Assembly: GCA_025517465.1 (NCBI GenBank)
Contig: JAOPKE010000006.1
Span: 1-64,000, forward strand
Direction: 5' to 3'
Length of the DNA stretch: 64,000 nucleotides
Origin: Halobacteria archaeon HArc-gm2
GTDB lineage: Archaea; Halobacteriota; Halobacteria; Halobacteriales; Haloarculaceae
Of this stretch, positions 3,212 to 64,000 are shown piece by piece. The notes beneath the pieces are model-generated. The model saw nothing but the letters and a program-made list of their open reading frames with translations, was not told the origin of the DNA and did not search any database. The position numbers and the translations under genes were made by a program. Every line of letters starts with the position of its first letter. The stretch's first letter is position 1.

Positions 3212-4816
3212 TCAGTTGCGGCCACATTCGGGGATCGACTCGATATCGATCGTCGCGACCTTCCTACCATCGAACATGAATATAACCGTGCCGGCGTCGC
3301 TCTTGTTTCCGATCCAGAAGGATTTGCACTTGTGCTTGTCGACCGTGACCTTCCCGCCCTTACCCGTTCCTTTCAGCCTGTAGGAGAACTTCAGATCGTG
3401 TTTCGTGTCGTTGTGGACGACGTGTTTGATACGTTTGTCTGTTCGACATTCTGCCTCAAATCGAACGTCCTTTTTGATATCTGGCTTCTTCTTTCCGTCC
3501 TTATCCGATGTGTCGGTTTCCGTTTCCGTGTCGGTTTCCGTTTCGGTTTCAGTTTCAGTTTCCGTTTCCGTGTCGGTTTCCGTTTCCGTTTCCGTCTCAG
3601 TGTCGGTTTCCGTTTCAGTTTCCGTCTCAGTGTCGGTTTCCGTCTCAGTGTCGGTTTCCGTTTCCGTTTCCGTTTCCGTGTCGGTTTCAGTTTCAGTTTC
3701 CGTTTCAGTTTCCGTCTCAGTGTCGGTTTCCGTTTCCGTGTCGGTTTCAGTTTCGGTTTCAGTTTCAGTTTCAGTTTCCGTGTCGGTTTCCGTTTCAGTG
3801 TCGGTTTCCGTTTCCGTGTCGGTTTCAGTGTCGGTGTCGGTTTCCGTGTCGGTGTCGGTTTCAGTGTCGGTGTCGGTCTCCGTGTCGGTGTCGGTTTCCG
3901 TGTCGGTATCGGTGTCAGTTTCAGTGTCGGTGTCGGTTTCCGTGTCGGTATCGGTGTCGGTGTCGGTATCGGTGTCGGTGTCGGTCTCCGTGTCGGTGTC
4001 GGTGTCGGTTTCCGTGTCGGTATCGGTGTCGGTGTCGGTTACCGTTTCGATAGGTTCGCAGCCGGTAACTGTCGCCATCTGCAGATCGACCCTAGTCTGT
4101 GCGTACAGGCATCCGTCGACCCTCGCATCAGTAAGCACGTTGATTTCCGTTTCAGACAGTACAACTCCCGAAAACTGCGCGTTCGTTCCGATCTCTACAC
4201 CGGCACCGCCAGCAACCTGCCAGAAGATGTTCTCGACCTCGGCACCGCCAGTCAGGAGGACGTTGGTGCCGCTGGCCGTCGTAAGATTGCCATCGATCTG
4301 GAAGATCCAGACATCATCTGGACCGCCCGCGAGGGTAATGTCATCGCTAATTGAAACATCCGTACTCCAGTTGTAAATTCCAGGGACCAGGGTCAGACCG
4401 CCGATTTCGCCACCGTTCAGGTCTTGAAAGTCAGGAGGTGAGCGGCCGGCGGCGTCGGTATACGCAGATTCCATATCGCCCACAGCTGTGGTCAGGATGG
4501 ACGGGGTCGGTGGCGCGTAGTCAGCCGCGTATACGCGTCCGCTCACTTGATCCGATGTCGCGAATTCGCCCGATGAATCCAACACTAAATCGAAACCGGT
4601 GATGCCGGTCGAGTCGATTGGGCTCACGGCGATATTTCCCGTCACATCGGAATCAGGTACCGTTGAAATTCCTGATTTCGCCAGAATCGTATAATTACTG
4701 GCTTCTCCGAGGTCGACTGGACTTCTGTGTTCTTCGCTTAAAGCAGTTGATGCCCCAAACACAGCCAATCCGCTTGCTGACAACAGTTTGAGGTAGGTTC
4801 TTCTATTGGTTTTCAT
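3212..4816 (-). CDS. Tat-exported DUF3494 (ice-binding-like) surface protein with Thr/Asp/Glu stalk
   Basis: 534 residues. The N-terminus has a twin-arginine motif (NRRTYLK) and hydrophobic stretch, so Tat export is likely. Residues about 34-253 match the DUF3494/ice-binding-like beta-helix domain ([44 protein letters not shown]). Residues about 256-437 are an almost pure Thr-Asp/Thr-Glu alternation, probably an extended and possibly O-glycosylated stalk. The last ~95 residues form a separate basic domain with several Cys. In haloarchaea this family is probably adhesive or surface-structural rather than antifreeze. An ATAACAA box lies 36 nt upstream of the ATG. It sits between the two 255-bp twin elements. 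Confidence 0.85.
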
Positions 4817-4852: not shown

Positions 4853-4859
4853 TTGTTAT
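4853..4859 (-). promoter_or_regulatory. ATAACAA box upstream of DUF3494 gene
   Basis: TTGTTAT on the plus strand reads ATAACAA toward the gene starting at 4816, with 36 nt between box and ATG. The same box precedes most surface-gene starts at 54-64 kb. Its promoter role is inferred from position. Confidence 0.45.
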
Positions 4860-36803: not shown

Positions 36804-37382
36804 CCGGCCACCCCCGTCGACGGCTCTCGGCCTCTCTTCGACAGCGCTTGCAGGTCGGTCGTGACGAGTGCTGGTTCTGGCATACGTTCGGAAACTCCGG
36901 GTGATCCGTAGCGGAGTGACGGACCGGATCCCGGAAGTACCGTTCTTCGACCGTCTGCTTTGTTATGACCCTCCACTGTCAAACAGACCGAGACTATCGG
37001 CGACGAACGCCGCGTTTCGCTCGCGGAAAGGGAACGCTATCTGCGACGCCAGCGTTTCCGAACGACGGACCGACCGGTAAGTCCACCTGTCGTCGTCGGT
37101 CGACCGGATCAGGATCCAGACGGACGCCCTCCCCCAGCAACCCAGTGAGACGGTCGCCGCTCGCCAACCGACGGGGCAGTTTCCGACCGGTTTGTGAGAG
37201 GGAACTGCGCTGGCAGGGGCGCCGCTTATATTCGTCTAGAGCCTACCCGATTCACCGAACGTTCCGGCGCCGGGAACCGCTATCGGACCGGCGTCAGCAG
37301 TATCCGGCGTGGGCCGTCGAGAACCGGATCCGCCGGTCCTCGCGCCCCGAATCAGCGCACGACCTGTGGGAACCCGAAGAAA

Positions 37383-53835: not shown

Positions 53836-54120
53836 TGAGAGCGTGCTGGGGTGGGCAGTCACATCGCGCAGGGAAGCGATAGCCGACTTCCCCAGTGGGG
53901 GACAGGCGAGCCATCCCTATTGTTATAACTCAGTTATCCGAATTCGTACAGTGCTATGGGCTGATTTCGACCTGGCCGTCCGCGATCTGTCCAGCGCCTC
54001 GGTAGTCCGTGACACGGTCGCGCCGAATGAGGGCAGACGCCGAATATCCCACGAATTGCGACTTCTCCGTAGCGATCTCCGGTAGTTATAAGGCAGCGTT
54101 ACCACCTCGAAAAAGGCGTC

Positions 54121-54127
54121 ATAACAA
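54121..54127 (+). promoter_or_regulatory. ATAACAA box upstream of winged-helix gene
   Basis: 27 nt separate the box from the ATG at 54155. No TATA-like element lies between; a GGAGG lies 7 nt before the ATG. Confidence 0.5.
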
Positions 54128-54154
54128 TACCCCGCCGTCTCTGAGGAGGTTCCA

Positions 54155-54508
54155 ATGGGTCAGGATACTACGGCGCGGCGTGACGTACCAGACCGACTTC
54201 CGAGTTCGGTTCTTCGGTTACTCGCGCCGGAACGCCGTCGGGCAGTCATGCGGGCGCTGATGGACGAGCCCAACACGACACATCGCATCGACGACATCGT
54301 CAACGCCATCGAGGAGACCTACAGCGACATCGGGCAAGAATCGTCGAACCGCACGTACCTGCGGTCCTCGCTCCACCACACCCACCTGCCGAAACTCGAC
54401 GACGCGGAAGTCGTCGAGTACGACCCCGACGACGGCACCGTCCAGTACCGCGGCGACCCGCACATCGAACAGTGGGTCGACCAGATCGACCGTATCGACG
54501 AAGACTGA
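54155..54508 (+). CDS. DUF7344-type winged-helix protein
   Basis: 117 residues. LRLLAPERRRAVMRALMDEP begins the winged helix, then VNAIEETYSDI, LRSSLHHTHLPKLDDAEVVE and the wing YDPDDGTVQY. It is the first gene before the surface/glycan region and shares the ATAACAA box with it, so it may be the local regulator; this is inference. A GGAGG ribosome-binding sequence is present, which is less common in this genome. Confidence 0.82.
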   Translation: MGQDTTARRDVPDRLPSSVLRLLAPERRRAVMRALMDEPNTTHRIDDIVNAIEETYSDIGQESSNRTYLRSSLHHTHLPKLDDAEVVEYDPDDGTVQYRGDPHIEQWVDQIDRIDED

Positions 54509-54593
54509 CGGTCGACCGAACGCGAGAATCCCGCTTTGTGACGCGGCCACGGCCAGAACAGTCAGCAGAAGCGGTTGTCAGCGGAACCCGTTC

Positions 54594-55598
54594 TCAGCGG
54601 AGCCGCTTGTACGTCTTCGCTGCGAGCGACATGCCGGGGCTGGACTTCTCCAGGCCGTCGTAGGTTTCGAGCGTCGGCGCGAACTTCGCCTTGTACCGGG
54701 AGAGTCGCGGCTTGTTCGCGCCGACGAGGTCGTACCGGGTGACGCCGCGCTCGGCGGCCTCGTTGATGACGTGCCAGTGGACGACGTCGTTGACGTCGAG
54801 GTCCACGTCGGGTTTGACGACGCCCTGCCACCCGTAGGCCGTGTCGCCGTGTTCGAGCGTGAGCGAGCCACCGACGGCCCTGCCGTCGACCTCACAGACG
54901 TAGGGCCGGACGACGCCCTCGGGCGCCCGCTCGTACAGGTCGGTGACGAAGTCGGTCGTCAGGGGATACCACTCGTCCTGTTCCTCGTGGCGACGGCGCA
55001 CCTGATCGACGATCGTGCGGGCGGCGTCGGCGCCGCGCTCTTCGACGACGCAGTCGGCGTCCCGGGCGTCGCGGACGTTCTTGCGTGCGTCGCGGCTGAA
55101 CCGGTCGAACAGCGCGTCCGGCCCGTCCGACAGGTCGACGACGTAGGTGAAGTTCGGCGTCGACTCGTACCCCTTCCAGGTGAACGGGCGGGTGTCGCGG
55201 TAGCGCGTGTGCGTCCGCACGTGGACGTAGCGCGGGCCGAACTGCTCGTCGACGTAGTCGAGACAGCCCTCGACGAACCGGCGATTGCGACGCTCCGCCT
55301 TGCTCGGTTTCAGCTTCGCGACGTTGAGCAGCGTCGGGCCCAGGTAGGTGATCTTCAGGCTCGGTGGCGGCGAGAACGCCGTCGCGACGGGCCCCTTCCG
55401 CACGACGAAGACGGGGAAGAGCCCGACCGGTTCCTGGCCCTTGTACCCCACGAGGGGGTGGAGGGTCGCACCCGCGTGGTCGGCGACGACCGCCAGGAGC
55501 GCGAACCGGTGGAACGGCGTCGCGCCCGGCGACTGCTCGACCAGCCGGTCCCACTCCGAACGCTGCTCGCGCGTGAACTCCTCGATCTCGATACTCAT
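54594..55598 (-). CDS. FemAB/GNAT-like aminoacyl- or acyltransferase
   Basis: 334 residues with the double-GNAT FemAB-type pattern: WDRLVEQSPGATPFHRFALL, GPTLLNVAKLKPSKAERR, RFSRDARKNVRDARDADCVV, DFVTDLYERAPEGVVRPYVC and YDLVGANKPRLSRYKAKFAP. In bacteria such enzymes modify peptidoglycan or surface polymers; haloarchaea lack peptidoglycan, and related genes sit in surface-glycan regions, as here. A 15-codon upstream ORF ends in the ATGA overlap with this start. Substrate unknown. Confidence 0.85.
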   Translation of the reverse strand: MSIEIEEFTREQRSEWDRLVEQSPGATPFHRFALLAVVADHAGATLHPLVGYKGQEPVGLFPVFVVRKGPVATAFSPPPSLKITYLGPTLLNVAKLKPSKAERRNRRFVEGCLDYVDEQFGPRYVHVRTHTRYRDTRPFTWKGYESTPNFTYVVDLSDGPDALFDRFSRDARKNVRDARDADCVVEERGADAARTIVDQVRRRHEEQDEWYPLTTDFVTDLYERAPEGVVRPYVCEVDGRAVGGSLTLEHGDTAYGWQGVVKPDVDLDVNDVVHWHVINEAAERGVTRYDLVGANKPRLSRYKAKFAPTLETYDGLEKSSPGMSLAAKTYKRLR

Positions 55599-55642
55599 CG
55601 CGTGGCCACCCTACGTCCTGGCCGGTGTCGTGAAGCACCCAT
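55595..55642 (-). CDS. Candidate 15-codon upstream ORF coupled to FemAB-like gene
   Basis: ATG at 55642, MGASRHRPGRR..., stop TGA overlapping the downstream ATG as ATGA. An ATAACA box lies 32 nt upstream of this ATG, whereas it is 76 nt from the FemAB start. Possibly a translated leader. Confidence 0.35.
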   Translation of the reverse strand: MGASRHRPGRRVATR

Positions 55643-55674
55643 TCAACACACTGTCCCACGCCCCCCGGTAGAAA

Positions 55675-55680
55675 TGTTAT
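55675..55680 (-). promoter_or_regulatory. ATAACA box (variant)
   Basis: TGTTAT on the plus strand, read ATAACAT on the minus strand, 32 nt before the ATG of the 15-codon leader. The last base deviates from the ATAACAA consensus. Confidence 0.35.
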
Positions 55681-55708
55681 TTGCCGGCGTCTCCGGCGAA
55701 GGGTATCT

Positions 55709-55715
55709 ATAACAA
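55709..55715 (+). promoter_or_regulatory. ATAACAA box upstream of leader ORF and DUF1616 gene
   Basis: 34 nt before the ATG at 55750, 105 nt before the DUF1616 ATG. This suggests that transcription begins near the short ORF. Confidence 0.45.
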
Positions 55716-55749
55716 AACGCTCGTTGCGACTAGGTCGTCGTAACCACTG

Positions 55750-55824
55750 ATGATCGGGACACAGCAGTCGTACGCACCGACCGCAGCGGCCACGGGCGGT
55801 TCCGGGGCGGGTGATGACCGATGA
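55750..55824 (+). CDS. Candidate 24-codon upstream ORF coupled to DUF1616 gene
   Basis: ATG at 55750 opens 24 codons (MIGTQQSYAP, Gly/Ala-rich) ending in TGA that overlaps the DUF1616 ATG as ATGA. Spacing to the ATAACAA box fits this ATG better than the DUF1616 start. Confidence 0.4.
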   Translation: MIGTQQSYAPTAAATGGSGAGDDR

Positions 55825-56834
55825 CGACAGCACCGTCGACTGACAGCGAATCGGGGCGGATCCGCTCGCTCCTGACGGGGTTCCCACTCGACCTCCTGGC
55901 CGTCATCGTCCTGGCCGCGCTCGTCTTCGCAGTCCTGCTGGGCTCGGACGCCGGCTACTCGTGGCCGCGGGCGCTCGTCGGTTCGGTGTTCGTCCTCGTC
56001 TTGCCCGGCTACGCGCTCGTCTCGGCGCTGTTCCCCGGACGCCCCACCGGAACGCGCTCGCACCCGGTGAGCGCGTCGGCGTACAGCCCCGGGACTATCG
56101 AGCGGTTCGGGCTCTCGTTCGGCTTCAGCCTCGCCCTGCTGCCGATTCTCGCGGTGGTCCACGGCCTGGTCGGGATCCCCTTCGAGACGGCCACCGTCGT
56201 CACCAGCGTCACCGTCCTGGTGGTCACGCTCTCGGTCGTCGGCATCGTCCGGCGGGTTGCGCTGTCGCCGAGCGAGCGGTACAGCCCGCCCTCGCTGCTC
56301 GGCTACGGCGCGCGGACCCGGGACTGGCTGGCCGCCGGCACGGCGACCGACACCGTCCTCAGCGCCGTCCTCGCCGTCGCCGTCCTGCTGGCCGTCGGGA
56401 GCCTCGCGTTCGGGCTGACGGGGCCGACCCAGGGCGAGTCCTACACCAGCGTCTCGCTGGTCACCGAGACGGCCGACGGCGACTACGTCGCCTCCGGCTA
56501 CCCGACGAACCTCACCGCCGGCGAGGCCCGCGACCTCACGCTCGAAGTCGAGAACCACTACGAGGAACCCGCCGCCTACACCGCCGTCGTCGAACTCCAG
56601 CGAGTCGACCGCAACGGGACCGACGGCGTGGCGGTGACCGAGCGAGAGCGCCTCCAGACGCTGGAGTCGCAGGTCCCGGCCAACGAGACGTGGCGGGCAA
56701 CCCACCAGGTCGAGCCGTCGATGTCCGGCGAGGACCTCCGCCTCGCCTACTACGTCTACCGCGGTGAGGCGCCGGAGACGCCGTCCGCGGCGAACGCCGA
56801 GGGCCACGTCCACCTCTGGGTGACGGTAGAGTAA
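55821..56834 (+). CDS. DUF1616 membrane protein
   Basis: 337 residues. The N-terminal ~200 residues carry about six membrane segments in the DUF1616 layout (PLDLLAVIVLAALVFAVLLG, LVLPGYALVSALFPGR, ERFGLSFGFSLALLPILA). The C-terminal ~130 residues are an extracytoplasmic beta-rich domain with several NxS/T sites (NLTAGEARDLTLEVENHY). Often encoded within haloarchaeal surface-glycan gene clusters; function unknown. Convergent with the AbrB-like gene. Confidence 0.88.
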   Translation: MTTAPSTDSESGRIRSLLTGFPLDLLAVIVLAALVFAVLLGSDAGYSWPRALVGSVFVLVLPGYALVSALFPGRPTGTRSHPVSASAYSPGTIERFGLSFGFSLALLPILAVVHGLVGIPFETATVVTSVTVLVVTLSVVGIVRRVALSPSERYSPPSLLGYGARTRDWLAAGTATDTVLSAVLAVAVLLAVGSLAFGLTGPTQGESYTSVSLVTETADGDYVASGYPTNLTAGEARDLTLEVENHYEEPAAYTAVVELQRVDRNGTDGVAVTERERLQTLESQVPANETWRATHQVEPSMSGEDLRLAYYVYRGEAPETPSAANAEGHVHLWVTVE

Positions 56835-56870
56835 GGCGAGCGTCTCACGCGGCCAGAAGCGGTTTTCTCG

Positions 56871-57164
56871 TCAGGCGCCATCGTTCCCCAGCTTCTCGGC
56901 GACGTGTGCGGAATCGCGCCGTCGCTCCTCCCGGAGAGTCACCGATGGGCACTTCTCGTCGTCCAGGTCAGCACTCGTCGCGAGTGCCCCCCTGATCTCG
57001 GCCGGAGGCTTCACCCGTCGAAGCACGACTTCCACGTCGTCGGTCTCCACGAACGTGATTCGGCCTGTTCCCTCCAGGCCGAGAGTGTCGCGAACCCGCC
57101 GAGGTATCGTGACCGTCCCGTCGCAAGCGACGGATGCTGTCGGTTCGTTCGATGACCCAGTCAT
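56871..57164 (-). CDS. AbrB/SpoVT-type DNA-binding protein
   Basis: 97 residues. The swapped-hairpin AbrB pattern is present: ASVACDGTVTIPRRVRDTLGL and GTGRITFVETDDVEVVLRRV, followed by a charged tail. This may be an antitoxin or transcription regulator. No toxin gene is adjacent: the neighbours are a DUF1616 gene and a surface protein gene. Role uncertain. Confidence 0.82.
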   Translation of the reverse strand: MTGSSNEPTASVACDGTVTIPRRVRDTLGLEGTGRITFVETDDVEVVLRRVKPPAEIRGALATSADLDDEKCPSVTLREERRRDSAHVAEKLGNDGA

Positions 57165-57310
57165 ACGCGACGGCTCGTCGCCCTCCTACCTGGGTCCACC
57201 TGTGGCCCCGGTCCCTGGTCGCGCCGGTACCCGAAACGACCCGTATCGGCGGAACGACAGTGAGCGGCCGGCGAACCGACTGCTGCGGCGAAAAAGAGGA
57301 ACGGGAGCGA

Positions 57311-59968
57311 CTACAAAATCCGGATCAGTCCCACGGCGCCGATTACCAGGATGCCGAGGCCGGCGAGGGCCAGTTCCGTGCTCTGGCCGCTGGTCGGCGC
57401 AGCGTCCGTGCTCTCGGTATCGGTGCCCGAACTCTCGGCGTCGCCCCCGGTGACGGTGTCGCCCTCCGTGTCGGTGCTGCCGTCGGCCGACGCGACGGTG
57501 ATCGTCTCCTCGGTGCCGGCCACCGAGACGCGCGCGTCGCCCGCCGCGTCGAACGTCGTCTCGAAGGAGACGGTCACTGTCTCACCCGCTGGGACGGTAA
57601 CGTTCCGCGAGTCGACGAGCGTCCCCTCGACGGTGAGATTCACCGTCCGGTTGGCGTCGAGGTGGCCGTCGTTGGCGAGCGTCGCCTGGACGGTCGCTGA
57701 CTCGCCGGCCGTCGCCGTGCCGTTGGTGCCGATGGCCGTCGCGGTCACGTCGGGCGAGACGGCCGCGACCACGACTCGATCGGCGTCGGCGGTCGTCGCA
57801 TCGAGGACGGTCGTCGACCCGTTCTCGACGACGGTGTGGTTCAGCGCCGTCACGTTCGAGCCGTCACTCGCCAGGACCCGGAGTTCGCCCGACTCGCCGA
57901 TGGCGGCGCGGTCGACCGCGAACCGGTAGGTGACGTTCGCGACGGTCGACCCGTTCTCGGTGCGAACCTCGTACAGCCCGGCGTCGGTTCCAGTGGGTGC
58001 GCTCACCTCGTCGCTGGGGACCAGCGTGAGGTTCAGCTGGTCGGCGTCGGTGTCGGGAACGAGTTCGACGGAGCGCAGGCCCGTAGCGTTCTCGGCACCG
58101 GGGACGTCGGCCGAGACGGCCTTGCCCTCGGCGGCGTTCTCGACGGTGACGACGAGTCGCCCGTCGTCGGTCTGGGAGACGCTCGCGCTTGACGACTCGT
58201 CAGCGGGTGGCACTGCGCCGCCGGTGCCCCCGGAGCTCCCGTCGCTGCTGGGGCTCCCGCCACTCGGGCTACTGCTGGAACTGTCGTCACCGGAATCGTC
58301 CGTCTCGTCCGACCCGTCCGAGTCGTCGCTGTCGTCGCCATCGTCGGCGTCGTCGGAGCCGTCCGACTCGTCGTCACCGCTCTCGTCCTCGGAGCCGTCG
58401 TCGGTCTCCTCGGCTTCCACGGTCACCGGCACGGTTGCGTCGTCGGTGTTGTTCGCGTCGTCGGTCACCGTGAGGGTCGCTTCGTACTCTCCCACGCTCG
58501 CGTACGCGTGCGAGACCGTGGCGCCGTCGCTCGCGTTCCCGTCGCCGAAGTCCCACTCGTAGGCAGTTATCTCGTCGTCGTCCGTCGACGCGGTACCGTC
58601 GAACGCCACCGGCTCGCCGGGTGCGACGGTCGTCGGGTCGGCGCTGGCCGCGGCCGACGGGGGCGCGTCGGGTGCGGCCTCGACGGTCACTTCCGCGGTC
58701 GTTGCGTTCGTCTGGTCGCTCCCGTCGACGACCGTCACGCCGACGGTGTGGGTGCCGGCGTCCGCGAAGGTCCGTTCCAGCGTCGGGCCATCGGCGTCGA
58801 CGGTCGCCCCGTCGACCGTCCACTGGTACGCGACGATCCCCTCGTCGTCGGTCGAGCGGCGCGCGTCGAACGTCGCTGGCTCGCCGGCCGTCACTGACTC
58901 GGGGGCGTCGAGGACGGCCGTCGGTGCTTCGTCGGTGTCCTGGGCCTCGACGGTGACCGGGACGGTGGCGGTGTCCGTGTTGTTGGCGCCGTCGGTCACG
59001 GTCAGCGTGGCCTCGTAGGACCCGTTCTCCGCGTAGGCGTGCGTGACCGTCTCGCCGGTGACCGGCTCGCTGCCGTCGCCGAAGTCCCACTCGTAGCCCT
59101 CGACGCCGAGGTCGTCCGTCGACTCGCTCGCGTCGAAGGTGACGTCCTCGCCGGGCGCGACGGTGGTCGGCGAGACGTCCGCGTTCGCCTCGGGGGCCGT
59201 CTCGTCCTCGCCGCAGATACCGCGCTGGATCGTGATCGGCTCGGTCATGTCGAGTTCGGTCTCGGTGCCGTCGCCGGAGCGAGCGACCCAGCTGGTCGTC
59301 CGGTTGTCGTCGTCGCCGGACCAGTTCCACTCGCCCCAGGCCCGGGCCTCCTCGTTGAAGGAGGGATCGACGGTGATGGCGCCCTCGGCGTCCATCTCGT
59401 GGAGGCCGCGGTAGGCACCGCCGTCGGAGCGGTCGGGCTGCCACATCCAGTCGACTGTCGTCGACGAGTCGTCGATCTCCCAGTTGTCGTCCTGACTGTC
59501 GTTCTGGTACGTGTCGTCCTGGACGGCCCACGCCCCCTCGGGGAGGTCCGAGATCTGCATCGTGATGGTGCCACCGAAGGGCTGGGGTTCGCCGTCTTCC
59601 CGCGCGTCGTGGAGGAAGACGAGGCTCGTCCCCTCGGACCCCTCGTAGACGAACACCTTGCTCACCTGGTTGTCCTGCAGGTGTTCGGTGCCGTAGGAAG
59701 AGTAGTCCCAGGCAAACGCCTCCGTGTACGGAGTGCGATAGTCGTAGAACGCTTCGACCGTCTCCGTGCCGTCGCCGTGGGGTTCGAGCAGGACGCACTC
59801 GCCGCCCTGCTCGACGACGTACGTGTCGGCCGTGTCGGAGGTGTTCGCTGCCGTCGCAGGCGCGCTCGCAAACGTGAGCGCGGGTGCTGCCACCACCAGG
59901 ATCAGCACTGAGACGACGCGAAGAGAGCCGGGTTTCGAATGTGTCATTGTTTGGAGGACACGCCGCAT
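57311..59968 (-). CDS. Secreted surface protein with three PKD domains and C-terminal anchor
   Basis: 885 residues from the ATG at 59968; an ATG at 59947 is the alternative. The upstream start is preferred because the ATAACAA box lies 35 nt before it rather than 56. A signal peptide spans about 15-40. A unique N-terminal domain (~45-255) precedes three PKD repeats (~256-516), each with the YEWDFGDG type motif or close variant and a THAYAENGSYEATLTV ending. An Asp/Ser linker (~521-570), CARDB-like domains and a final hydrophobic segment (LALAGLGILVIGAVGL) follow. Probably a cell-surface adhesin or structural protein. Confidence 0.85.
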   Translation of the reverse strand: MRRVLQTMTHSKPGSLRVVSVLILVVAAPALTFASAPATAANTSDTADTYVVEQGGECVLLEPHGDGTETVEAFYDYRTPYTEAFAWDYSSYGTEHLQDNQVSKVFVYEGSEGTSLVFLHDAREDGEPQPFGGTITMQISDLPEGAWAVQDDTYQNDSQDDNWEIDDSSTTVDWMWQPDRSDGGAYRGLHEMDAEGAITVDPSFNEEARAWGEWNWSGDDDNRTTSWVARSGDGTETELDMTEPITIQRGICGEDETAPEANADVSPTTVAPGEDVTFDASESTDDLGVEGYEWDFGDGSEPVTGETVTHAYAENGSYEATLTVTDGANNTDTATVPVTVEAQDTDEAPTAVLDAPESVTAGEPATFDARRSTDDEGIVAYQWTVDGATVDADGPTLERTFADAGTHTVGVTVVDGSDQTNATTAEVTVEAAPDAPPSAAASADPTTVAPGEPVAFDGTASTDDDEITAYEWDFGDGNASDGATVSHAYASVGEYEATLTVTDDANNTDDATVPVTVEAEETDDGSEDESGDDESDGSDDADDGDDSDDSDGSDETDDSGDDSSSSSPSGGSPSSDGSSGGTGGAVPPADESSSASVSQTDDGRLVVTVENAAEGKAVSADVPGAENATGLRSVELVPDTDADQLNLTLVPSDEVSAPTGTDAGLYEVRTENGSTVANVTYRFAVDRAAIGESGELRVLASDGSNVTALNHTVVENGSTTVLDATTADADRVVVAAVSPDVTATAIGTNGTATAGESATVQATLANDGHLDANRTVNLTVEGTLVDSRNVTVPAGETVTVSFETTFDAAGDARVSVAGTEETITVASADGSTDTEGDTVTGGDAESSGTDTESTDAAPTSGQSTELALAGLGILVIGAVGLIRIL

Positions 59969-60003
59969 CGGGCGTTAACGGGTAGTTGTCACTGAACATC
60001 CCT

Positions 60004-60010
60004 TTGTTAT
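60004..60010 (-). promoter_or_regulatory. ATAACAA box upstream of PKD surface gene
   Basis: CCATAACAAAG on the minus strand; 35 nt to the ATG at 59968. Confidence 0.45.
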
Positions 60011-60081
60011 GGTTAGGTGACCGCAGCCAAGGGACGTGAACGTCGCATTAAACACGCACCTACGACCGGCACCCGCCGCCG

Positions 60082-61191
60082 TCAATCCTGGTCCATCGGC
60101 CGCTGGGCGACGACCCTGGGCTCGTCCTCCACGGCGCTCTCGCGGATCGTCTCCATGATCTGGATGGTCCAGTGGGCCTCCTCCAGCGGCGAGGGCAGGT
60201 CCCGATCCTGGATGAGCGCGGCGGCCTCGGCGTCGAACTGGTAGTAGTGCGGGACGGCGTCGCGCTCGACCTCCCAGCTGTCGTCGCGCTTGCGCTCGAC
60301 GACGTCGTAGACGTTCTCCAGCGTCCCCCTGACCCGGTCGATGACGTGGTCGACGTTCGTCATCGCGCGCATGACCGGCGAGGACTGGTAGTCCCGGTCG
60401 AGCGTCGTGACGGTCTGGGAGACGACGTCGACGACGATGCTGCCGTCGTCGCCGTGGATGGTGAGCGTCTTGTGGGGGATCTCGCTGGCGACGATGGTGC
60501 CGCTGCAGAGCACGTCGTCCTCGCTCGTGAACTGGAACTGGACGCCGTCGTAGGCGAACTCGCCGTCGTACTCGCGCCGGCGCTGGGAGCTGGCGTCGAT
60601 GTCGTCGGCGCTTCTGGGATACCCCCCGAGATTCAGCAGCATGTAGATGGGGTGGGGGAATCCCTCCTCGAACTCGCCGCCGGGGAGTTCGTGGGCCCAG
60701 GCGCCGCGTTTGACCTCGTCGGGCCAGGTCTCGCCGGCGTACAGCATGTCGACCGAGCGGATCTGTCCGACGTCGCCGCGCTCGATTGCGGCCCGGGCCT
60801 TCCGCATCGCGGGGTCGAAGTTGTGGTTGTGGACCACGGAGACGGGCACGTCGTGGCGCTCGGCGACGCGGGCCAGCTCCTCGGCCTCGGCCACCGTCTC
60901 GGTGACTGGCTTCTCGATCTGGACGGGGACGCCATCCTCGATGATCGTCGTCGCCAGGTCGAGGTGCGTCTGGACGGGGGTACAGAGGTGGACCCAGTCG
61001 AGGTCCTCCCGCGCCAGCATCGCCTCGACGTCGGTGTAGGCCTTGAGGTCGTACTCGCGGGCCTTCTCGCGGACCGTGTCCTCGTCGACGTCGCAGATGG
61101 CGACGAGGTCGGTCATCGCGAGTTTGTCCAGCCCGTCGAGGTGCCTGTCTGAAACAGTCCCGCCACCGACTACCGCAGTCGTGAGTGACAT
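60082..61191 (-). CDS. Gfo/Idh/MocA family oxidoreductase
   Basis: 369 residues from MSLTTAVVGGG. The Rossmann start TTAVVGGGTVSDRHLDGL, the CTPVQTHLDLA loop and the EKPVTETVAEAEEL signature place it in the Gfo/Idh/MocA family of NAD(P)-dependent sugar dehydrogenases or isomerases. The middle has a likely catalytic region (GAWAHELPGGEFEEGFPHP). In this surface-glycan setting it probably modifies a nucleotide sugar. Box spacing of 27 nt supports the ATG at 61191 over the alternative at 61209. Confidence 0.88.
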   Translation of the reverse strand: MSLTTAVVGGGTVSDRHLDGLDKLAMTDLVAICDVDEDTVREKAREYDLKAYTDVEAMLAREDLDWVHLCTPVQTHLDLATTIIEDGVPVQIEKPVTETVAEAEELARVAERHDVPVSVVHNHNFDPAMRKARAAIERGDVGQIRSVDMLYAGETWPDEVKRGAWAHELPGGEFEEGFPHPIYMLLNLGGYPRSADDIDASSQRRREYDGEFAYDGVQFQFTSEDDVLCSGTIVASEIPHKTLTIHGDDGSIVVDVVSQTVTTLDRDYQSSPVMRAMTNVDHVIDRVRGTLENVYDVVERKRDDSWEVERDAVPHYYQFDAEAAALIQDRDLPSPLEEAHWTIQIMETIRESAVEDEPRVVAQRPMDQD

Positions 61192-61218
61192 TGTAGGCAT
61201 CAGCGCCACGTGAGGCCA

Positions 61219-61225
61219 TTGTTAT
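61219..61225 (-). promoter_or_regulatory. ATAACAA box upstream of Gfo/Idh/MocA gene
   Basis: CCATAACAATGG on the minus strand, 27 nt before the ATG at 61191; no TATA-like sequence between. Confidence 0.5.
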
Positions 61226-61306
61226 GGTGGGGGTTGCGTCCGATAACCCCGATATACCGCCACTGCGTCGCGTATCGGTCGCCTTCGTATACGAAGTCCT
61301 ACAGCG

Positions 61307-61882
61307 TCACACGCTTCGCGGGTCGACGGCGCGGACGATCGACGCGACGCCCGGCCAGCCGTCCCGACGCCACAGCAGGAGGGCGACGCCGAGCAGCGAT
61401 AGCTCGACGAGGAGGAAGGTGATCCCCTGTGGCGTCCGCAGGAAGGCGAGGAACTGGACGACGAGTTCGAGGACCCGGCCCGCGAACGCGTCCGTCTGGG
61501 ACGGCGGGATGTCGACGAACGGCCAGAAGAGAAAGGCCAGGTTCGGCGGGTCGCCCAGCACCATCGGGTAGACGACGTCCGCCGGGAGGTGGACGAGGTA
61601 CGCCAGCGAGAACGCCGCGCCCACGTCCGCCCGCCCGTACCGGCGTGCGACGAGGTAGACGACGACGGCGGTGGGGGCGGCGACGGTCAGGGAGTGAGCC
61701 AGCGAGTGGCCCGAGGGGAGCAGCGACGTCCGCCAGCCCAGTGGCTTGTCGATCAGGTCGGGCAGCTGCGAGCCGACGACGGCCGCGATAGCCTCGGCTT
61801 CACCCGGCGGGCGCCTGCTCCGTCCGCGACGCCACAGCGAGACGGCGAGGTAGCCGATGGCGAGGTGGTCCCACGGCCACAT
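61307..61882 (-). CDS. YdjM-type predicted membrane-bound metal-dependent hydrolase
   Basis: 191 residues. MWPWDHLAIGYLAVSL, VGSQLPDLIDKPLGW and LLPSGHSLAHSL carry the conserved His and Asp residues of the LexA-binding/YdjM (PF04307) membrane hydrolase family, with about four membrane segments. Substrate unknown. No ATAACAA box is present at its start, unlike its neighbours. Confidence 0.85.
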   Translation of the reverse strand: MWPWDHLAIGYLAVSLWRRGRSRRPPGEAEAIAAVVGSQLPDLIDKPLGWRTSLLPSGHSLAHSLTVAAPTAVVVYLVARRYGRADVGAAFSLAYLVHLPADVVYPMVLGDPPNLAFLFWPFVDIPPSQTDAFAGRVLELVVQFLAFLRTPQGITFLLVELSLLGVALLLWRRDGWPGVASIVRAVDPRSV

Positions 61883-62080
61883 CGCTACTGGCGGCTACTC
61901 ACCCTGCTACGGTCGGAAGTGCTCATCGTCGTCTCCTGGGTGACGGAGCGGTATAGTTAGCTGGACTGTACACGCACGCGGCGGATGGCGTCGGCGTCCG
62001 GGCCTGCGGCAGACGGCGTCGCTCGCACCCATTTCGCGAGCCAGGCGACTAGACCCACCTTACCGGCCCTCCCGAGATGG

Positions 62081-62087
62081 ATAACAA
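62081..62087 (+). promoter_or_regulatory. ATAACAA box upstream of flavin reductase gene
   Basis: 28 nt before the ATG at 62116, supporting that start over an ATG at 62077 that lies upstream of the box. Confidence 0.5.
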
Positions 62088-62115
62088 AGGGTACAGCCCG
62101 CGCGCTGTCGACAAT

Positions 62116-62610
62116 ATGCCCATCGAACGGACGAAGTTCCAGGAGACGGCGGGGATGGTGCCGACGGGGGTGGCGGTCGTCACGTTGCCGCCGGCCGCCT
62201 GCCCGCACGGGGTGACGGTCAACTCCTTCGACATGGTGTCGCTGTCGCCGCCGCTGGTCTCCATTGCACTGCCCGACGGGACGAAGGCCCACGAACTGCT
62301 CCGGGAGACCTCCATCGACGGGTTCTGCCTGAACGTCCTCACCGCAGATCAGCGCCGTCTCGGCCGGTACTTCGCTGACGTCGCCGACCTCTCGGAGAAC
62401 CCCTTCGTCGCCGAGCCGGTCCGGACGGCGGCCTCGGACGCGCCCGTGTTCGAGGACTCGCTGGCCTACATCGACTGTTCTGTCCACGACAGTTACGAGA
62501 CCGGCGACCACACCATCTACGTCGGCGCGGTCGAGAGCGCGGACGTGCTGAACCGGACCGCGACGCCGCTGACGCACTTCCGCAGCGACTGGCACGCCGC
62601 ACCGGAATGA
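62116..62610 (+). CDS. Flavin reductase-like (DIM6/NTAB) FMN-binding protein
   Basis: 164 residues from MPIERTKFQETAG. The split-barrel FMN fold is recognised by TGVAVVTLPPAACPHGVTVN and SFDMVSLSPPLVSIALPDGT, and the late DHTIYVGAVESADVL. It probably reduces or binds FMN and may supply a monooxygenase or act alone. No partner oxygenase is in view. It belongs to the group of genes with the ATAACAA box. Confidence 0.88.
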   Translation: MPIERTKFQETAGMVPTGVAVVTLPPAACPHGVTVNSFDMVSLSPPLVSIALPDGTKAHELLRETSIDGFCLNVLTADQRRLGRYFADVADLSENPFVAEPVRTAASDAPVFEDSLAYIDCSVHDSYETGDHTIYVGAVESADVLNRTATPLTHFRSDWHAAPE

Positions 62611-62645
62611 CCGGGGAACGACCGCATCAGGGCCACAGGCGCTCC

Positions 62646-62652
62646 ATAACAA
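62646..62652 (+). promoter_or_regulatory. ATAACAA box upstream of leader ORF and GT2 gene
   Basis: 28 nt before the ATG at 62681 of a 27-codon ORF and 98 nt before the GT2 ATG. This spacing points to transcription starting at the short ORF. Confidence 0.5.
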
Positions 62653-62680
62653 ACCACCTCTCACGGCCATACAGACACCA

Positions 62681-62764
62681 ATGACGCGACTGAACAGACC
62701 GACGTTCGACGCGCCACAGACGACAACGTTGTTCACTTCCAGGGGGTCCGATGTACAACGATAA
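62681..62764 (+). CDS. Candidate 27-codon upstream ORF overlapping GT2 gene
   Basis: ATG at 62681 (MTRLNRPTFDAP...) reads to TAA at 62762-62764, overlapping the first 14 bases of the GT2 gene in another frame. Box spacing fits this start. It may control GT2 translation by coupling. Confidence 0.4.
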   Translation: MTRLNRPTFDAPQTTTLFTSRGSDVQR

Positions 62765-63800
62765 GACCGTCGCCGTCGTGATCCCGGCGTACAACGAGGA
62801 AGCGTTCGTCGCCGGCGTCGTCGAGACCGTCCCCGACTTCGTCGACCGCGTCTACCCCGTCGACGACTGCTCGACGGACGGCACCTGGGCGGCGATCCAG
62901 GGGGCCGCCGAACGGGTGAACGACGCCGGCCTCGACCGGGACAGTCCTTTCGAGGACCGCGTCGTGCCCCTCCAGCACGCGGAGAACCGCGGCGTCGGCG
63001 GCGCCATCAAGACCGGCTACCTCCGGGCGCGCGAGGACGCCATCGACGTCACCGCCGTGATGGGCGGCGACGGCCAGATGCGCCCCGAGGCCCTGGAGCT
63101 GATCGTCGAACCCGTCGCCACGGGCCGGGCCGACTACGCCAAGGGCAACCGCCTGCTCGACGAGCAGTTCCACGAAGACATGCCGCGCTTCCGGTACGTC
63201 GGTAACCGCATCCTCACGCTGCTGACGAAGATCGCCAGCGGCTACTGGAACGTCGGCGACCCCCAGAACGGCTACACGGCCATCTCGCTCGAAGCGCTCG
63301 AACGGGTCGAGATCGAGGAGATGTACGAGTTCTACGGCTACTGCAACGACCTGCTCGTCAAACTCAACGTCGCTGGCATGCGCGTGGTCGACGTCCCACG
63401 CCAGGCCGTCTACGACGACGAGGAGAGCCACATCGACTACCGAACGTACATCCCGAAGGTCTCGGGGATGCTCGCCCGGAACGCCCTCTGGCGAGTCTGG
63501 GCGAAGTACGTCGTCAGCGAGCGCCACCCGGTCGCGCTGCTGGCCGGCGTCGCGGCGCTGGCCGGCGTCGCCGGCGTCGGCAGCCTCCTCAAGCGCATCA
63601 CCGGCTTCGGCGACGGGACGTCGCGTCTCGGGACGCTGGCGACGCTGTTCGGGACCGCCGTGTTCGCCATCCTGGCCATCGACCGCGAGCACGACGACCA
63701 CCTCGACGGCCAGACCGAGTGGAAACCGGAACCGGACTCCGTCGAGCAGTCGATGGTCGAGGAGGCCGACCAGCGGACCCAGATTCGCCACCAGGATTGA
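62751..63800 (+). CDS. Glycosyltransferase family 2 (dolichol-phosphate-sugar synthase-like)
   Basis: 349 residues. The GT2 fold shows TVAVVIPAYNEEAFVAGVV, VYPVDDCSTDGTW and the metal-binding VMGGDGQM, then GYWNVGDPQNGYTAISLEAL with the acceptor loop. Two C-terminal membrane segments (about 256-275 and 292-308) anchor it. It probably charges a dolichol phosphate or builds a surface glycan on the cytoplasmic face. An overlapping 27-codon ORF precedes it. Confidence 0.92.
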   Translation: MYNDKTVAVVIPAYNEEAFVAGVVETVPDFVDRVYPVDDCSTDGTWAAIQGAAERVNDAGLDRDSPFEDRVVPLQHAENRGVGGAIKTGYLRAREDAIDVTAVMGGDGQMRPEALELIVEPVATGRADYAKGNRLLDEQFHEDMPRFRYVGNRILTLLTKIASGYWNVGDPQNGYTAISLEALERVEIEEMYEFYGYCNDLLVKLNVAGMRVVDVPRQAVYDDEESHIDYRTYIPKVSGMLARNALWRVWAKYVVSERHPVALLAGVAALAGVAGVGSLLKRITGFGDGTSRLGTLATLFGTAVFAILAIDREHDDHLDGQTEWKPEPDSVEQSMVEEADQRTQIRHQD

Positions 63801-63835
63801 ACGGTAAGGTCGTTTCCGACACGGATTGCCCCATC

Positions 63836-63842
63836 ATAACAA
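63836..63842 (+). promoter_or_regulatory. ATAACAA box upstream of lipoprotein gene
   Basis: TCATAACAATC, 28 nt before the GTG at 63871; no TATA-like element between. It supports the GTG as start. Confidence 0.5.
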
Positions 63843-63870
63843 TCAGGGATCGCACCAGAGAGACGGACAA

Positions 63871-64000
63871 GTGACTGACGACAACCGAACCCGGCGTCGA
63901 TACCTGAAAACGCTCGGCGGCGTCGCGGGCCTCGCAGCGCTAGCGGGGTGTTCCTGGCTCGATCCGGGTCCGGGGCCGTCGGAGACGGAGACGCCGACGC
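63871..64000 (+). CDS. Tat-exported lipoprotein, 5' part (runs off the window)
   Basis: 43 codons from a GTG start are visible. The peptide begins VTDDNRTRRRYLKTLGG, a twin-arginine Tat motif, followed by a hydrophobic stretch and LAALAGCSW, a lipobox with the acylated Cys near residue 27, then a Pro/Thr/Glu linker. This is the standard haloarchaeal Tat-lipoprotein start; many are solute-binding proteins, but the rest is outside the window. ATAACAA spacing supports the GTG. Confidence 0.8.
   Translation, partial: MTDDNRTRRRYLKTLGGVAGLAALAGCSWLDPGPGPSETETPT

Follow-up and report, generated by a model that had tools for sequence, protein, structure and literature searches.

How archaea coordinate their surface sugars with their surface proteins is, to our knowledge, largely unexplained. 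Canonical haloarchaeal promoters consist of a B recognition element (BRE; CGAAA), a TATA box (TTWT, W being A or T) and a −10 WW element, and give rise to leaderless transcripts (Babski et al. 2016, PMC4983044). In Haloferax volcanii, the CsmR site, TATCA-N4-TGATA, lies beside the TATA box of motility and cell-shape genes, and at archaellum promoters of Methanococcus and Pyrococcus the winged helix-turn-helix (wHTH) activator EarA is thought to offset a poor BRE by recruiting TFB (PMC13286277). Here, we analysed the first 64,000 nucleotides (nt), hereafter the window, of contig JAOPKE010000006.1 (C15) from the 4.25-Mb genome of Halobacteria archaeon HArc-gm2 (G000), where the 7-mer ATAACAA recurs at set distances before start codons, and found that this box is almost certainly a real promoter-position element of a haloarchaeal surface regulon.

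Generic promoters of G000 agree with the published BRE/TATA/−10 pattern (PMC4983044), with AA at −34/−33, a T-run from −30 to −26 and A at −11/−10. Box promoters resemble this canonical form in their place relative to a presumed leaderless start and in keeping the A at −11, but differ from it in that ATAACAAW replaces the T-run, in that an extra conserved element lies ~10 bp upstream and in that they serve mainly surface genes. In 41 start-aligned box promoters, the frequency of T was 0.00, 0.00 and 0.03 at −30, −29 and −28, versus 0.32–0.37 in 823 generic upstream regions of G000, while A reached 0.46 at −11, the generic value being 0.31–0.34 at −11/−10. As the box promoters lack the T-run yet retain the A at −11, the box replaces BRE/TATA by position, and we infer that it also stands in for them by function. 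As a winged-helix regulator that acts next to the core promoters of its haloarchaeal genes, CsmR resembles the regulator proposed here; its site, however, is semi-palindromic, sits beside a normal TATA box, has another sequence and serves other genes, and the consensus of that site (PMC13286277) is not contained in our aligned motif, [G/A][T/C]A-N8-ATAACAAW. The likeness to EarA would be one of mode of action, the genes and clades being different.

Within the window, ATAACAA occurs 10 times versus 0.43 expected from dinucleotide shuffles, and none of 100 shuffles reached 10 copies, an excess even larger than an initial annotation of this DNA had estimated. That annotation had placed the box 27–28 nt before the starts (ATG or GTG) at 54155, 61191, 62116, 62681 and 63871, with nothing TATA-like in between, and 34–36 nt before those at 55750, 59968 and 4816; all of these distances are right, and no T-rich TATA-like stretch separates box from start in the 27–28-nt group. 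Not every start named is a gene start, however, as mini-ORFs (short open reading frames) begin at 62681 (27 codons), 55750 (24 codons) and 55642 (15 codons), and their stops overlap the real gene starts at 62751, 55821 and 55598, respectively. The start at 4816 is probably not a member, because its box (4853–4859) reads ATAACAAG, with a G after ATAACAA, whereas A or T follows all 15 copies of the cluster described below and all promoter-spaced copies in other species. The ATAACAT variant suggested before 55642 has weak backing from a substitution scan (2 versus 0.5 background), while its mini-ORF shows the stop/start overlap of true members. No suitable start codon lies behind the ATAACAA copies at 36960 and 53920.

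Genome-wide, the 7-mer by itself is hardly enriched, with 77 copies versus 61 for the reversed word. Fifteen of the 77 are clustered in C15:53920–93094, a 39-kb interval representing 0.9% of the genome, and the cluster therefore extends ~29 kb past the window, to contig position ~93100. No other 7-mer is as strongly over-represented in this cluster as ATAACAA (15 copies versus 2.2 expected, against 425 kb of G000). The spaced form ATAACAAW-N25–28-ATG is enriched in G000 (14 versus 2 in the control), and across 155 Halobacteria genomes it occurs 1131 times versus 284 for the reversed pattern, a fourfold difference (Wilcoxon p 1e-22), so that the genome-wide enrichment near start codons on which the initial annotation had staked its reading is found 25–28 nt before ATG. 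The motif is enriched in nearly every Halobacteria family, most strongly in f14 (402 versus 59; f5, f6, f7, f12 and f14 label haloarchaeal families in our cross-genome comparison, and G and L numbers denote genomes and loci).

Because the reversed control pattern does not itself precede ATG, permutations of the same letters make a stricter control. Among 42 such words compared at promoter spacing, ATAACAA came first with 47 occurrences and the next non-overlapping word reached 5, the overlapping TAACAAA being the sole other same-composition word enriched. An ATG lies 25–28 nt past the box in 53 cases, versus ~6 per 4-nt bin at other distances. Single-substitution counts at promoter distance showed T2, A4, C5, A7 and W8 to be essentially invariant, with A1, A3 and A6 tolerating some change. 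The full motif was derived from 149 distinct sites in many haloarchaea; in the upstream element, 83% of them have A at −9 relative to the box and almost none have G at −10, and C is favoured immediately 5′ of the box. A weak A/T preference also recurs every ~10 bp upstream (−19, −30), possibly reflecting repeated contacts on one DNA face.

The 39-kb cluster encodes FemAB/GNAT acyltransferases, glycosyltransferases of families 2 (GT2) and 4 (GT4), DUF354, a polysaccharide deacetylase and a hexapeptide acetyltransferase. Further products are a flippase, a DUF1616 protein, a DegT aminotransferase, Gfo/Idh oxidoreductases, a nucleotidyltransferase and a phosphodiesterase-like protein, and there are surface proteins of the beta-helix and PKD types as well as several small helix-turn-helix (HTH) proteins, including DUF7344. 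From these protein families we infer a surface-polysaccharide or protein-glycan cluster. The palindrome AGCGCGCT is also over-represented in C15:53800–93200, with 12 counts on both strands, or 6 sites, versus ~1 count expected.

Outside the cluster in G000, seven of the eight promoter-spaced W-type boxes precede genes for secreted-like proteins, as defined by a crude hydrophobicity rule, versus 18% of 708 background genes (Fisher p 5e-5). One of these seven encodes a TylF-like methyltransferase, probably a glycan enzyme instead of a secreted protein; others, named by eye, encode FG-GAP, DUF4397-like, beta-helix, PKD-protein-relative and SIMPL-like proteins. A second species of the genus has the same kinds of boxed genes, including a GlmS-like gene, and boxes in f14 and f6 precede look-alikes of the window-cluster genes, namely those for a phosphodiesterase-like protein, a PKD-type surface protein and a TylF-like methyltransferase, as well as a GNAT protein, an epimerase, a glycosyltransferase and many secreted beta-helix-type proteins, all again assigned by eye. 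Relatives of the 885-aa PKD protein of the window, their similarity likewise judged by eye, are preceded by the box in other genomes. The association with surface proteins and glycan enzymes, first read from the window, thus holds beyond it, and the prevalence of the motif before cell-surface and sugar-coat genes suggests that one dedicated regulator switches them together. The major S-layer glycoprotein (TIGR04216) was considered as a member and rejected, since no fetched gene has a box at normal promoter distance. Within f12, genomes with TIGR04216 are almost box-free and most of those without it have boxes (p 0.004, ignoring relatedness).

Homologues of DUF354 are present in 61 of 116 genomes of the family. 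At 17 DUF354 loci from other genera, the top enriched 7-mers were TAACAAA and ATAACAA and the top 8-mer was CATAACAA, with few box copies in control stretches drawn mostly from the same genomes. Named glycan loci of eight genera (Haloarcula, Halomicroarcula, Natronomonas, Halorubrum, Halobaculum, Halohasta, Haladaptatus and Halobacterium) contain 3–6 copies of ATAACAAW per 21 kb versus 0.01–0.2 expected, and conservation of the box upstream of related glycan loci, a comparison that the initial annotation had called for, is therefore seen in other genera. Natrialbaceae loci with DUF354 have 0–1 ATAACAAW and mostly lack the rest of the cluster; other families, f7 included, still carry the motif elsewhere in the genome. 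At Methanosarcina loci, ATAACAAW is not above chance. Our literature search, open-access and without most subscription journals, returned no paper that names the motif. With spacing enrichment, surface-gene bias and conservation upstream of related loci all found, the description of the box as an alternative promoter class fits.

Two readers had been proposed for the box, a particular TFB/TBP and a dedicated regulator. The latter is better supported, because position C5 hardly varies, the box is preceded by a second element 9–11 nt upstream and the motif does not follow TFB copy number, and we consider it likely that a dedicated HTH factor reads the box, rather than general factors alone. The first gene behind a box in the window, at 54155, encodes a member of DUF7344 (Pfam PF24035) by profile score (E 2e-18; 67 bits versus a curated cut-off of 27.8, hence above the family threshold), a family in which most members carry two C-terminal membrane helices. 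The AlphaFold model of this protein has a wHTH-like secondary structure (predicted local distance difference test score, pLDDT, 72), and the DUF7344 models (pLDDT 72 and 76) show a wHTH-like helix order with a two-strand wing; their best PDB structure matches are mostly ArsR-, HxlR- and MarR-type regulators, though weak (E 0.007 or worse). DUF7344 proteins are predicted from models to be winged-helix proteins. A PDB sequence search for relatives returned nothing useful, and no open-access paper naming the family was found.

To relate the family to the motif, we scored each of the 155 genomes by its best match to the DUF7344 protein encoded at C15:92292–92819. This score correlated with motif excess at rho 0.60 overall, 0.56 without f14 and 0.72 within f12, and motif excess per genome was 8.2 where a close homologue is present, 2.3 where the homologue is distant and 0.65 where there is none. 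Boxed DUF7344 genes occur in the window (54155), in G082, in a Haloplanus metagenome-assembled genome and in f14, and four further members have GTAACAAA variants 69–131 nt upstream. In f14, a conserved 10-codon mini-ORF, MLGYEQGVA(K/Y), lies between the box and a membrane-type DUF7344 gene (L302 and L354); at L302, the box is at 524, followed by the mini-ORF, DUF7344 at 590–1258 and then apparent trpD, trpF and trpE genes. Several points weigh against DUF7344 as the reader: just 2 of 22 examined DUF7344 genes have a box, the score correlates negatively with motif number within f14, where the motif is commonest (rho −0.44), the correlations ignore relatedness among genomes, and, as genomes have many paralogues each, the co-occurrence could stem from the presence of the glycan cluster. 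Given this mixed support, DUF7344 is the leading candidate rather than the demonstrated reader, and we name it as the dedicated factor only tentatively. A second HTH protein, HVO_A0261-like (C15:91829–92107), is cluster-linked and tracks the motif within f12, but was rejected as a universal reader (rho −0.02 overall), being absent or a distant match in the motif-rich f14 and present in the motif-poor f5-g13. Its gene and a DUF7344 gene are adjacent beside the glycan cluster in several families (G000:C15:91832–92819; L002).

We propose that [G/A][T/C]A-N8-ATAACAAW acts as the core-promoter signal of a Halobacteria cell-surface regulon, in which the box, lying between about −35 and −27 relative to the start of a presumed leaderless transcript, would take the place of the usual BRE/TATA. 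A dedicated winged-helix factor, not TBP alone, would read it; the most likely reader, a DUF7344 protein, usually membrane-anchored, may bind the box and recruit TBP/TFB and RNA polymerase as an activator. Transcription would then start at or next to the first AUG, belonging either to the gene itself or to a mini-ORF coupled to it via overlapping stop and start codons. Taken together, the element, the surface regulon and a dedicated reader, leaving aside its identity as DUF7344, form a reasonably probable whole, and activation seems somewhat likelier to us than repression. The boldest version, a second core-promoter class devoted to the envelope, in which membrane-anchored DUF7344 reads GTA-N8-ATAACAAW in place of TATA/BRE and many transcripts enter translation via leaderless mini-ORFs, is a possibility we regard as doubtful; if true, it would couple the surface state directly to transcription initiation.

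An unlikely alternative is a variant of TATA/BRE that one particular TFB or TBP paralogue recognises with no other regulator, a sigma-factor-like specialisation of general factors, which would suit the BRE/TATA position of the box, its strict distance to the start and the many TFBs of haloarchaea (4–27 TFIIB-repeat matches per genome). TFB expansion was rejected as an explanation, however, since within three families the motif shows no positive relation to TFB copy number (rho −0.56 in f12, −0.02 in f14 and 0.39, not significant, in f5). The GTA element lies well upstream of BRE. TBP binds in the DNA minor groove, and the almost invariant C is unlike TBP recognition. We consider it similarly improbable that a repressor uses the box as its operator and so keeps TBP/TFB out, with a weak TATA-like start used when the repressor leaves. 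Many archaeal repressors bind at the TBP/TFB site, and the overlap of the box with that site suits a repressor equally well, which counts against an activator; an operator, however, would need neither the fixed 25–28-nt distance nor the loss of the TATA T-run. That ATAACAA is one TATA spelling among many, frequent through the AT-rich promoters of glycan regions, would accord with the scant enrichment of the bare 7-mer but is very improbable in view of the same-letter control (TAACAAA excepted), the few copies in control loci, the surface-gene bias and the near-invariant core positions.

If the motif acts as a dedicated promoter signal, its sharpness makes surface coordination a testable regulon in genetically tractable haloarchaea, offers a candidate function for DUF7344, a large, many-copy family of unknown function, and may define a class of archaeal promoters in which no TATA box can be recognised. 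Many true start codons and mini-ORFs are predicted by the motif as well. Of 65 boxed ATGs, 21 open a frame of fewer than 60 codons, and most of these frames stop within a few nt of where the real gene begins, in many cases with an ATGA overlap; they include 55642, 55750 and 62681 of the window and cases at L110, L145, L150, L161 and L302. A set of 19, drawn from this list together with two further window cases and one f14 case, has all of its stops −16 to +5 nt from the gene start and eight exact ATGA overlaps, versus 5.8 and 0.6, respectively, with shuffled starts. The significance of this comparison is overstated because the set was selected, cases without a nearby start being left out and the best-fitting start chosen; the eight exact overlaps are more reliable. 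Judged from sequence, this arrangement suggests leaderless mini-ORFs coupled to the downstream gene. Coupling of translation by stop/start overlap is known in archaea (PMC6728339) and shares the ATGA-type overlap between upstream frame and gene; here, by contrast, the upstream frame is a mini-ORF, mostly of 10–34 codons, at a fixed promoter distance.

Table 1 Boxes and associated genes in the window (contig positions).
Feature	Position	Strand	Remark
ATAACAA followed by G	4853..4859	−	probably not a member
ATAACAAA copy	36959..36966	−	outside cluster; no gene start behind
ATAACAAT copy	53919..53926	−	no gene start at promoter distance
ATAACAAT box	54121..54128	+	27 nt upstream of ATG 54155
DUF7344 winged-helix protein (predicted), 117 aa, no membrane helices	54155..54508	+	first gene behind a box; candidate regulator
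FemAB/GNAT-like acyltransferase	54594..55598	−	Pfam PF13480
ATAACAT variant	55674..55680	−	31 nt upstream of 15-codon mini-ORF 55642–55595; membership uncertain
ATAACAAA box	55709..55716	+	34 nt upstream of mini-ORF 55750–55824
24-codon mini-ORF	55750..55824	+	stop overlaps ATG 55821 as ATGA
DUF1616 membrane protein	55821..56834	+	Pfam PF07760, E 6e-82
885-aa secreted PKD-domain surface protein	57311..59968	−	Pfam PKD
ATAACAAA box	60003..60010	−	35 nt upstream of ATG 59968
Gfo/Idh/MocA oxidoreductase	60082..61191	−	Pfam PF01408
ATAACAAT box	61218..61225	−	27 nt upstream of ATG 61191
ATAACAAA box	62081..62088	+	28 nt upstream of ATG 62116
Flavin reductase-like protein	62116..62610	+	Pfam PF01613
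ATAACAAA box	62646..62653	+	28 nt upstream of mini-ORF 62681–62764
27-codon mini-ORF	62681..62764	+	stop 14 nt into glycosyltransferase gene
GT2 glycosyltransferase	62751..63800	+	Pfam PF00535
ATAACAAT box	63836..63843	+	28 nt upstream of GTG 63871
472-aa secreted beta-helix protein, 5′ part	63871..64000	+	continues to contig position 65289

In addition, the full motif, with a ggta element and a box at 26–28 nt, precedes the gene for a 40-aa micro-protein of the CxxC/CxxxC zinc-binding type (MGCINCDTDGTAYTLRAHVEE...) in two species of the genus (G000:C13:440832, locus L229; L244:1173).

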